NCBI GenBank assembly: GCA_902812365.1
Contig: CADDZC010000032.1
Location: 1 to 40,903, forward strand
Direction of reading: 5' to 3'
Source: Acidobacteriota bacterium
GTDB taxonomy: Bacteria; Acidobacteriota; Terriglobia; UBA7540
Length of the DNA: 40,903 bases
In this document: positions 34,377-39,502 of the stretch, piece by piece
How positions within the stretch are numbered: position 1 is the stretch's first letter
How the letters are laid out: each line of letters opens with the position of its first letter
The notes under the pieces: generated by a model
The model's input: only the letters and a program-made list of their open reading frames with translations
Database searches by the model: none
Told to the model about the DNA's origin: nothing
Program-made: the position numbers and the translations under genes

Positions 34377-34552
34377 CACTTTAGCACGAGATGGCCTCGC
34401 GCGGAGCCCGCCGTTTTTGGACGGCCGCCACGCTCAGGCGAGTCCGTCTCCGCCGCGGGCGGAGCGTCGTAAAACCTTTTTTTGCTGCGGAGCGTCTAGG
34501 AGGGTGTACACTAGGGCCAGTGTGCCGTCAGCGGCACAGCAAGGGGTGCATC

Positions 34553-36178
34553 ATGAAACCCACCGTTCGGCTGGCAGCTCTCTCCGTGGCTTTGGGCTTC
34601 GCGTTCGTGAATGGCCTGATGGCGGGAGAATATTCCCATGTCCGGATCGTGCGCTTGAGCTTTACGGAGGGCACGGTCAGCCTCCAACGTCCGGGCTCAT
34701 CGGAGTGGGTGGAGGCACCCGTCAACACGCCCATCGAAGAGGGCTTCAAGCTCTCCACCGGGAAGGGCGGTTATGCGGAAGTCGAGTTCGAGAATGGCTC
34801 GACGGCGCGCTTGGGCGAACAGTCGCTGCTCGATTTCACCCAGCTCGTGCTCGGCGCGGCCGGCAACAAAATCAACCGCATGGCGCTCCTGCAGGGCTAC
34901 GGCACCTTCCATGCCGAAATGGGCAAAGATGATGTTTATGAAGTCGCGGCCGGCGGGGCCACGCTGCAGGCCTCGCGCAAGGCGGAGTTTCGCGCCGACG
35001 TGGACGGCGGCCATCTCCGCGTCGAGGTCTTTAAGGGCGACGTCCAGGTGACCAGCCCCCAGGGTTCCGCCACCCTCACCAAGAACAAAGTCCTCGAGCT
35101 CGTCCCACATGAAGAGGCCTTCACCATCACCCATGGCATCGCCAAGGACGACTGGGACCGTTGGGTGGCGGAGCGGGATGAAGAAGCCGACGCCGCCAAC
35201 CGCCCCCCGGTCGGATTTCGGGGCGCGCCCCGGTTCGGCTGGAGCGATCTGTACGATTACGGCCAATGGTCTTACCTGGACGGTTTCGGCTGGGCCTGGA
35301 TGCCTTACGTAGGCCCGATGTGGTCGCCCTTTACGCTCGGGCAATGGTGCTGGTACCCCAGCCTCGGCTACACCTGGATTTCCTTCGAGCCGTGGGGCTG
35401 GCTGCCCTTCCACTATGGCAACTGGTTTTTTGACCCGATGTTCGGCTGGATGTGGCTTCCCGGCAGTTTCTACGCCTGGAACCCCGCCCCCGTGAACTGG
35501 TACGTCGGGGCCGGCTGGGTGGGCTGGGCGCCGCTCACCGTCAACCGGCCGCCGAAGGGCCACGGAGCGGGGATGGTGACAGGCGGAAGCGCGGGCTGCG
35601 CCCAAGGAATGACGTGCCGGATCGTGACGGTGAGTACGGCGGCTTTCCAAAGCGGCAAACCCGTGGTGCCGCACGAAGTCCGGTTCACATCGCCTGCCGA
35701 CGGCCGCTTGGTTACCCGGCTCGACTTGGCTCCAACCCCCCAAGCCATGCTGCCCGGCGCGGTGATCAACCCGCCGGCGGTGGCCGCGGCGTTCGCGGCG
35801 CACTCTCGGATTGAGCCGGGAGCCCGTCCGCTGGCCCTCGGGCGAACCCCGTTGGATCACTCCGCGCCGGCAATGGCGCTCCCCCGCCCCGCGACGGCCG
35901 GGTTCCCCGCCGCCGGCCGCTCTTTCGCCCGCCCATCACCGGGCTTCGGCGCGTGGCATTCCCGTTCGGCTCCTGCCGTCTCGCCCCGACGATCTTTCGC
36001 GCGGCCCACCTTCATCAATTCGGGCGGCGGATGGCGCGGTGGCGAGATGCGGAGCAGCGGGCTGCCGAGCGGCGGGTTTTCCGCGCCGTCGCCCAGTCTG
36101 AGCGTCAGTAGTCCGGCCGCCTCCACCTCGGCCGGCCCCGCCGGGGGCCACGGCGGCGCGGCCGGCCCGCATCGCTGA
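34553..36178 (+). CDS. Exported FecR-domain protein with Trp/Tyr/Gly-rich domain
   Basis: A 541-residue protein. A signal peptide (1-24, FAFVNGLMAG) is followed by a FecR-like beta domain (about 28-190: GTVSLQRPGSSEWVEAPVNTPIEEGFKL, EVEFENGSTARLGEQSLLDF). Residues 215-345 are exceptionally rich in Trp, Tyr, Gly and Phe (DYGQWSYLDGFGWAWMPYVG, WGWLPFHYGNW), resembling the DUF6600-type region. The C-terminal ~170 residues are low-complexity Ala/Pro/Ser/Gly. The classical anti-sigma/TonB context of FecR is missing here. The ATG at 34553 follows AAGGGG. The function is unknown; a cell-envelope structural role is possible. Confidence 0.85.
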   Translation: MKPTVRLAALSVALGFAFVNGLMAGEYSHVRIVRLSFTEGTVSLQRPGSSEWVEAPVNTPIEEGFKLSTGKGGYAEVEFENGSTARLGEQSLLDFTQLVLGAAGNKINRMALLQGYGTFHAEMGKDDVYEVAAGGATLQASRKAEFRADVDGGHLRVEVFKGDVQVTSPQGSATLTKNKVLELVPHEEAFTITHGIAKDDWDRWVAERDEEADAANRPPVGFRGAPRFGWSDLYDYGQWSYLDGFGWAWMPYVGPMWSPFTLGQWCWYPSLGYTWISFEPWGWLPFHYGNWFFDPMFGWMWLPGSFYAWNPAPVNWYVGAGWVGWAPLTVNRPPKGHGAGMVTGGSAGCAQGMTCRIVTVSTAAFQSGKPVVPHEVRFTSPADGRLVTRLDLAPTPQAMLPGAVINPPAVAAAFAAHSRIEPGARPLALGRTPLDHSAPAMALPRPATAGFPAAGRSFARPSPGFGAWHSRSAPAVSPRRSFARPTFINSGGGWRGGEMRSSGLPSGGFSAPSPSLSVSSPAASTSAGPAGGHGGAAGPHR

Positions 36179-37786: not shown

Positions 37787-37832
37787 GTCCTCCCCCGCGC
37801 CGCCGGCACCGCGCCCCGGAGCGCGCGGCCGG

Positions 37833-38141
37833 CTAATCCTTCTGGTCGTCCTCGATGGTAATCTTGAGCGCGCGCAGGAATTCCGCGTCCTGGCGGGTCA
37901 GTTGAAAATCCTCCTGCCCGGCCGCCGCAGAGTCCCGTTCTCCGAACTTCTCCCGATGCATGATACTGGTCTCACCCCGCTTGTTAACCCCGATCGTGAC
38001 CTCGAGCACCAGGAAAAGGTCGTAACCGGCGTCGCGGATGCGGCTCATCACCTCGGCGATCCGATCCGATTCGGACAGTGACTCGTTGATGGCTTCACCC
38101 AGCTCTTTAATGAGGCGCTTGAATTGGTCACCCAGTTCCAA
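37833..38141 (-). CDS. Small acidic protein of unknown function
   Basis: A 102-residue cytosolic protein. Residues 1-40 form an amphipathic helix pair ([25 protein letters not shown]), residues 42-58 form two strands ([13 protein letters not shown]), and a Lys/Asp-rich helical C-terminus follows ([18 protein letters not shown]). No cysteine cluster or membrane segment is present. I do not recognise it. It starts 46 bp upstream of msrA, so it may be the first gene of a three-gene unit. Confidence 0.65.
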
Positions 38142-38167
38142 CCGTCACCCGCCTTGCTCTCACCCGG

Positions 38168-38372
38168 CATCGAGTCTGGTTTCATTGTAGGAGCCGCTTT
38201 GAACCGGTGTCAAGCTGGCGGGCTCCGCGGGGACGAGACAACGGGCCAACAGCTCTTGACAGTGACCTGCAAAATGTGTATTTTACAGTTATCTATGCTC
38301 CTTCTTCCATCGCCTCCTGAAGCTCGGTACGCGGCCCCTGCTACCACTCTGCGCCCGTCATCGAGTCTGGTT
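38168..38372 (+). repeat. 14-bp direct repeat pair
   Basis: CATCGAGTCTGGTT occurs at 38168-38181 and at 38359-38372, extending leftwards with one mismatch (CCCGgCAT / CCCGtCAT). The copies are 191 bp apart and flank the promoter-like site below. Confidence 0.6.
38256..38288 (+). promoter_or_regulatory. Promoter-like site with overlapping inverted repeat
   Basis: TTGACA (38256-38261) and TATTTT (38279-38284) have a 17-bp spacer. A 22-bp near-palindrome, CTGCAAAAT-GTGT-ATTTTACAG (38267-38288, one mismatch per arm), covers the -10. No gene lies close downstream. Confidence 0.5.
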
Positions 38373-38418
38373 CGAGCCGAAGGGGGCTTGCAGAGGCAAA
38401 AATCTCAACTGGGGCGAT

Positions 38419-38437
38419 ACCCCCCATCCCAGGGGGT
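38419..38437 (+). repeat. GC hairpin before the repeat array
   Basis: ACCCCC (38419-38424) pairs with GGGGGT (38432-38437) around a 7-nt loop, directly upstream of the first array repeat. Confidence 0.5.
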
Positions 38438-38440
38438 CGA

Positions 38441-38661
38441 AGCCACTATATTATTGAAAACAAGCAACCTAGCGGCTTCGCTCGAAAAACGAAGCCGCTA
38501 AGTTATTGAAAATACGTAGAAGCGGTTCTGGAAAGCCACTAGGTTGATGAAAAATAAAGGAGTTAGATAAAAACAGCGGGGTCCAGACGGGCTGTAAGTG
38601 ATTGAAAATTCGTCGAACCCTCCAAACCGGCCCTCGATAAAGCCACTAGGTTGTTGAAAAT
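38441..38661 (+). repeat. Array of five degenerate ~21-bp direct repeats plus one inverted copy
   Basis: A motif close to AGCCACTAGGTTGTTGAAAA-T occurs at 38441-38461, 38493-38513, 38534-38555, 38589-38609 (weakest, 16 of 21 bases shared with the second copy) and 38641-38661. The conserved end is TTGAAAA or TGAAAA. Start-to-start distances are 52, 41, 55 and 52 bp. An inverted partial copy at 38461-38480 (AACCTAGCGGCTTCG) pairs with the second direct copy to form an 11-bp perfect stem, TAGCGGCTTCG / CGAAGCCGCTA (38470-38500), with a 9-nt loop. The sequence between copies is not conserved. Confidence 0.7.
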
Positions 38662-39166
38662 GCTAGATATAGCGATTCATGGCCGAGAAACTCTGCGAAC
38701 CCCGCCCAAACCTGGCGCTCGCCGAAACTGGCCAGCGGTTCCTCGAGCGGAAAGGGCGAATTAAATTGCTTGGCCGGGAGAACAAACGTGGTACTATGAA
38801 GCGGCAATTTGTTGAGTCGCAGGGCCGACGAGCATCGTACGAACTTCAGGAGCGCACTTTCGGATCTCTCTCTGCCGTTGTGACCCGCCGAATGCCCGCC
38901 AGGCGCGGGATGTCCCCGGCGTCGCCGCAATCGCAAATTGCCAAACCAACGATAGAGCGTTTGAATGAAGAAGCAACGCACGGAGAAGCCATTCAGCCCC
39001 CGGAACCGTGACGGCTTCGCGCTTCCGGCTGGAAGGCACCGGGTTCCTAACGGGAGGGCAAGCTTCAGGTTCCGCCAGGAGCCGAAGAGCTTGGCGTCCG
39101 ACCAGATCGAGAACTGTAACCCAGCGGGGCGGCCTCGCAAGTCCGCCCGGATTCGGAGTGTTACTT

Positions 39167-39502
39167 ATGGCAAGACTTTTCGTGGGTAATCTTCCTCATA
39201 GCGCCACGGACAGCGCTTTGCAGGAATTCGTCACCGCGGCGGGGTTTCAGGTGGCTTCGGCCGTGGTGATCCGGGACAAGATGACGGGCGACTCGCGGGG
39301 ATTCGGCTTCGTGGAGCTGGCCGAGAACGAGGACGTCCAGCGCGCGATCGAGGGCCTGAACGGCCAGCCGATGGAAGGTCGCCGGCTGACCGTGAACGAA
39401 GCGCGGCCCCAGCGTTCGGACTTTTCCCGCTCGGGAGACCGCGGGGGCCGGCATCAGGGGCAGCGCGACCGGGGCGACTTCGATCGCCGAAGGCGGTTCT
39501 GA
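39167..39502 (+). CDS. RRM-domain RNA-binding protein with Arg/Gly-rich tail
   Basis: A 111-residue protein: one RNA recognition motif (1-80) with RNP2 LFVGNL at 4-9 and RNP1 RGFGFVEL near 44-51, then an Arg/Gly/Asp-rich tail (RGGRHQGQRDRGDFDRRRRF). This is the bacterial RBP architecture known from cyanobacteria and others, where some members are cold-induced. It likely binds structured or single-stranded RNA. ATG 39167 follows GGAG by nine nt. Upstream is a long leader without genes, which could hold regulation. Confidence 0.93.
   Translation: MARLFVGNLPHSATDSALQEFVTAAGFQVASAVVIRDKMTGDSRGFGFVELAENEDVQRAIEGLNGQPMEGRRLTVNEARPQRSDFSRSGDRGGRHQGQRDRGDFDRRRRF

Follow-up and report, generated by a model that had tools for sequence, protein, structure and literature searches.

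When bacterial genomes contain small interspersed repeats, these are usually taken for parasites or for hairpin terminators. Correia repeat enclosed elements of Neisseria are small dispersed repeats that can carry promoters and have terminal inverted repeats and a TA duplication, and REP/BIME sequences, associated with a RAYT transposase, occur in many intergenic copies with hairpins. CsrB-type sponge RNAs present many short recognition motifs for an RNA-binding protein on one RNA. The BOX element is built of boxA-boxB(n)-boxC sequence modules and is not known to have a promoter of its own. BOX is found in Streptococcus pneumoniae in about a hundred dispersed intergenic copies and is modular, with variable middle repeats (PMC3049150). 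It is over-represented between convergent genes, strongly folded and co-transcribed with genes, and it can form ORFs; its mobiliser is uncertain (PMC3049150). We found no paper in the open literature on repeats of the kind described here in Acidobacteria.

The window (the whole stretch of 40,903 nucleotides that was analysed) contains repeats that form the 3′ part of a dispersed element of about 400 bp. We consider them to be one copy of a lineage-specific dispersed family that acts at the RNA level, its linear motifs being read by a putative RNA-binding factor, and we give this reading a probability of roughly one half.

The element in the window and its copies in the source genome

The unit begins with a sigma-70-like promoter, continues with a locus-specific leader (~125 nt) and closes with a conserved array, in which five direct motifs are accompanied by one inverted copy. 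The array motif of the source genome (G000) has the consensus GAAGCC-N4-A/GGTTRTTGAAAA. In 29 aligned copies the motif blocks, spelled out as GAAGCC-N4-A/GGTT-R-TTGAAAA, are nearly invariant, and the spacers between them vary in sequence at nearly constant length.

The window array occupies positions 38419–38660. The five direct copies that the first-pass annotation had reported 41–55 bp apart were recovered in place on the forward strand, with starts at 38439, 38491, 38532, ~38588 and 38639 and start-to-start spacings of 52, 41, ~54–55 and 52. Motif 1 (GAAGCCACTATATTATTGAAAA) spans 38439–38460, motif 2 (GAAGCCGCTAAGTTATTGAAAATACGTAGA) 38491–38520, motif 3 (AAAGCCACTAGGTTGATGAAAA) 38532–38553 and motif 5 (AAAGCCACTAGGTTGTTGAAAA) 38639–38660; motif 2 is the best conserved block and the one common to the relatives. 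The unit of motif 4 keeps its 3′ half alone (GTAAGTGATTGAAAA), which lies at 38594–38617 (GTAAGTGATTGAAAATTCGTCGAA). The GC hairpin placed ahead of the array was found at 38419–38437 on the same strand (ACCCCCCATCCCAGGGGGT; ACCCCCC-ATCCC-AGGGGGT), a position that holds AAAACATCTTTTTTT instead in most other copies. The inverted motif copy (38466–38480, reverse strand) does form the proposed stem: it pairs with motif 2 in a hairpin at 38466–38504, its 15-nt arm being 93% complementary to 38490–38504. The element ends on the forward strand with an AT-rich stretch, usually ATAAnnnAGATAnnnnATTT, at 38661–38680.

A composition profile confirms a lower GC content here than in the neighbouring DNA. 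Its description as gene-free holds for ordinary genes between 38142 and 39166, but a 68-codon ORF (38295–38501, forward strand) runs from the promoter into the array. Similarly, the extent first given to the feature, 38409–38663, contains real repeats but is too small, since promoter and leader begin at 38256. Outside the element lies a divergent gene of 102 aa without Pfam match (37833–38141, reverse strand); the downstream gene (39167–39502, forward strand) encodes an RRM-domain protein of 111 aa (PF00076, E = 8e-16). A role for this protein as a cognate, autoregulated factor was not supported: no copy of the element lies close to the related RRM genes in other genomes. Farther away in the window, a large ORF (34391–36178) resembles a FecR/DUF6600 protein encoded downstream of another element copy (L016:4541-6925).

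A search of the 3.5-Mb source genome (assembly 97% complete) with the window region gave ~40 matches at E below 1e-3, with E values from 1e-4 to below 1e-100. Most are 220–245 nt long and 75–84% identical, and one further copy, on contig C25, is nearly identical; with 29 loci aligned, we estimate about 30–40 copies. So many matches lie far beyond chance. Together with the tens of copies per genome that same-motif arrays reach in other family members, this bears out the suggestion of a dispersed intergenic element of the lineage. The first-pass annotation had tied a reading as decayed sequence to the absence of a second locus, which is clearly not the case here. The copy on contig C1 has a longer array, other copies show 11-nt length variants and a few have a spacing of 63. 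Genes were called with a simple hexamer scorer, and genomes other than the source were read through fetched loci.

The window and C25 copies are identical over 38290–38660 (371 nt). This stretch begins at the predicted transcript start and runs through motif 5, where the interval copied between loci stops; the two copies have different promoters and 3′ flanks. The simplest explanation is gene conversion of one existing copy by the other. Because the identity begins at the predicted transcript start, copying through RNA would be possible, but no reverse transcriptase was found and gene conversion accounts for the identity. A sequence of 19 nt next to where the divergent gene begins (38163–38181) is nearly duplicated in the leader (38354–38372), and since the C25 copy has the window leader including this duplicate, the window may be the donor. 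The assembly breaks inside element copies at several contig ends (C24/C54, C37/C20, C4/C1 and C95/C43/C80), suggesting that there are more near-identical copies than the assembly shows.

These features also fit the main rival explanation, that of a BOX- or Correia-like parasitic repeat, mobile but non-autonomous and promoter-bearing, with no host function. In its favour are the many copies, the modular arrays of unequal length, the intact transfer of interiors between loci with different surroundings, the contig breaks within near-identical copies and the patchy presence in the family. The flanking genes, which are functionally unrelated (EF-P, IMPDH, PriA, a permease and outer-membrane proteins), fit it as well. 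It is harder to reconcile with motif blocks that are kept in every copy while the spacers drift, or with the continued conservation of old orthologous copies (see below). Moreover, neither terminal inverted repeats nor a target-site duplication was seen by eye in the aligned ends. The RAYT domain Y1_Tnp (PF01797) has no match in G000 and in the relative G010, and is present in some other carriers; RVT_1 (PF00078), the reverse transcriptase domain that a group II intron, a DGR or a retron would bring, has none in G000, G010, G036 and G038. We therefore rejected a RAYT or a reverse transcriptase as mobiliser, both domains being absent in G000 and G010. On balance, a parasite is quite possible but not what we would expect.

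Promoter, leader and mini-ORF

In the composition averaged over all copies, a second AT-rich dip appears 125–175 bp upstream of the array, and it was there that the promoter was noticed on reading the sequence. The promoter predicted in the window (38256–38284, forward strand) consists of TTGACA (38256–38261), a 17-nt spacer and TATTTT (38279–38284). Promoter-like sites with 16–18 nt spacing, usually CTTGACA-N17-TACTAT and variants, lie upstream of 27 of 30 copies in the source genome, counted as consensus matches. Of the remaining three copies, one is truncated by a contig end and another falls within a gene. Most G036 copies and about half of the G027 copies also have a promoter-like site. 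In G036 and G037, the −10 region of promoters (e.g., L128 and L146) includes GGCCTAGYATGGTAGCC, which resembles a palindrome; GGCTAG is found again 3′ of many arrays. The G036 loci L123, L124 and L125 have no recognisable promoter and a common 25-nt lead-in (AATGGAACATGACGTGCGTGGGAC); one of them directly follows a coding region.

Promoter and array are separated by 56–204 nt of locus-specific leader, with a median of ~125 nt. The window leader (38290–38415, forward strand; transcription predicted) is C-rich, then G-rich, and is common only to the C25 copy. Leaders show no excess of RNA structure compared with shuffles (mean z = −0.35). An ATG follows the −10 box by 7–15 nt in 23 copies. In the window the distance is 10 nt, so that the ORF would be nearly leaderless, and it ends at the TAA in motif 2. 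No stop codon interrupts the ATG frame within the leader in 22 of the 23 copies, compared with 9 and 12 for the other two frames and ~10 expected from shuffles (P ~3e-8).

This openness is what a family of small protein genes, with the mini-ORF as product and the array as its 3′ part, would lead one to expect. However, the peptides of the 23 copies are unrelated and their composition is flat by codon position, indicating that selection appears to act on openness and not on the product. The ORFs also end in different frames and at different array positions, and the frames are not kept in G036, which makes a protein product barely credible. The leader is often not open in G036, so the mini-ORF is not family-wide.

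Relatives, genomic placement and folding

A 24-letter array pattern occurs in 13 of the 39 genomes of the family (Bryobacterales, soil Acidobacteriota), whereas the 211 genomes from elsewhere in the class have no match; the reversed pattern, used as a control, has zero matches in all 250. Relaxing the pattern to 14 letters brings in several further family genomes, with a background of 0–4 per genome elsewhere. Exact and BLAST searches found the array in no group other than one family of Acidobacteriota. At the motif's four variable bases each genome has a version of its own (variable letters CCGCT/CCACT in G000, CCACC in G010, CGGAG in G036, CTAGG in G026 and G027, and CCAAG in G017). In G036 and its relatives, promoter, leader and array follow one another as in the source genome, with A-rich arrays that, read by eye, lack the inverted copy.

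The first-pass annotation had suggested protein binding on one DNA face, with motifs phased by five helical turns. Indeed, the G000 spacings of 52, 41, 54 and 52, and the variant of 63, are close to whole turns, as expected for a phased array of DNA sites for a regulator, a nucleoid protein or a roadblock protein. The proposal does not extend to the relatives, where the spacings (65–66 in G036, 77 and 65 in G027, and 105–243 in G010) are neither whole turns nor constant. It would also leave unexpected the placement of the G010 copies, nearly all of which sit in sense in the intercistronic gaps of operons. We therefore regard an array acting as DNA as unlikely.

After removal of duplicates, the gene downstream of a G010 copy is on the same strand in 18 of 18 cases and the upstream gene in 18 of 19. 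The motif copies of this genome show no promoter excess (mean score 7.3, compared with 6.9 on the control strand). Its sites in conserved operons (L058, L061 and L064) were read by eye as murG–murC, a xanthine dehydrogenase pair and NADH dehydrogenase genes. The bias is weaker where copies have promoters: the downstream gene is on the same strand for 24 of 28 copies in G000 (including one gene reassigned by eye), 29 of 39 in G036 and G038, and 10 of 15 in G027. What these genomes have in common is that the strand carrying the motif would be the transcribed one, driven by the element's promoter or by that of an operon, and it is mainly for this reason that we prefer a role as RNA. Since orientation is not strict where copies have promoters, as in G027, action in cis on the following gene is not a general feature. 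If the element were a parasite, selection against harmful insertions would account for the sense bias and the avoidance of antisense positions. The bias could also come from the pyrimidine-rich antisense strand, which might provoke Rho termination.

Arrays are retained over time. In five of the six G036 loci that could be compared (those with alignable flank in G037 or G038), an array is present at the orthologous place in the same orientation. Orthologous arrays are 78–88% identical, similar to coding DNA (75–87%), and the adjacent intergenic DNA is mostly unalignable; in one sister pair the alignment is continuous through intergenic DNA at 81%. Concerted evolution may contribute to this conservation.

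The array could alternatively be a structured cis-regulatory or noncoding RNA whose helices carry the function, a reading the first-pass annotation had also considered. G000 arrays are moderately folded, with a stability above that of shuffled sequences (mean z = −2.7), RNAalifold gives one consensus hairpin of 13 pairs in nearly all G000 copies, and the 5′ hairpin exists with two unrelated sequences. On the other hand, the covariation looked for in the stem did not appear, as the 13-pair hairpin has zero compensatory changes by RNAalifold, and the inverted copy is absent in G036. Spacers, leader and flanks show no convincing covariation either: pairs within a copy are not above those of mismatched copies, the smallest p in 21 tests being 0.049. 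No covariance model of Rfam 15 matches at E up to 1 over 37800–39300. We regard a function carried by helices as very unlikely. GC skew had hinted at a stem enclosing the array, which was not significant (p = 0.07–0.32).

A possible mechanism and comparison with known systems

The evidence as a whole suggests that the element works as an RNA. From the sigma-70-like promoter, transcription is predicted to begin ~5 nt ahead of the ATG. The short leader, unconstrained in sequence, would probably be translated, with translation stopping at stop codons where the array begins. The remainder of the transcript would present four or five single-stranded copies of the linear motif GAAGCC-N4-A/GGTTRTTGAAAAYACG as docking sites for the putative RNA-binding factor. 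Such an RNA might act in cis, in transcripts that run into the next gene, or in trans, as a multi-site RNA; recombination would homogenise the copies within each genome. We only tentatively go further and propose a new class of multi-locus array RNAs, encoded by tens of genes per genome and made of tandem linear motifs, in which the factor and the four variable bases co-evolve species by species and a near-leaderless mini-ORF, free in sequence, ends translation ahead of the array; in this full form the proposal is rather doubtful. Should the RNA reading be true, a single RNA motif would take up dozens of loci across a whole bacterial family, which must then possess a matching factor.

Among known systems, the family resembles CRISPR in its direct repeats of ~22 nt and spacers of similar length. 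It differs in that spacer positions are homologous and align between loci, the repeats are degenerate, the arrays are dispersed and no cas genes were noticed near the window copy; the earlier exclusion of CRISPR is thus upheld. CsrB is an analogy only: the motif is another one, there are tens of loci per genome and there is no known binding protein. REP/BIME sequences are set apart by the lack of Y1_Tnp in G000 and G010 and by the hairpin of the window family, which is not common to its relatives. With Correia elements the family shares small, dispersed, promoter-bearing repeats, but inverted termini and duplications were not seen by eye.

Like BOX, the family is dispersed, and its modular copies differ in how many internal repeats they contain. 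It also resembles BOX in its predicted transcription, in the ORFs it can form and in having no clear mobiliser. The description of BOX nevertheless sets the two apart: there is no apparent sequence relation, and the window family has a sigma-70-like promoter, a sense-biased placement, linear motifs and weak folding. The nearest known kind is the small interspersed repeat, with an RNA-level role favoured but unproven. As such a repeat, the family looks unusual in having its own promoter in several genomes, in lying in sense inside core operons of one relative (G010), in being retained at orthologous places in sister species and in having a motif that changes in concert within each genome.
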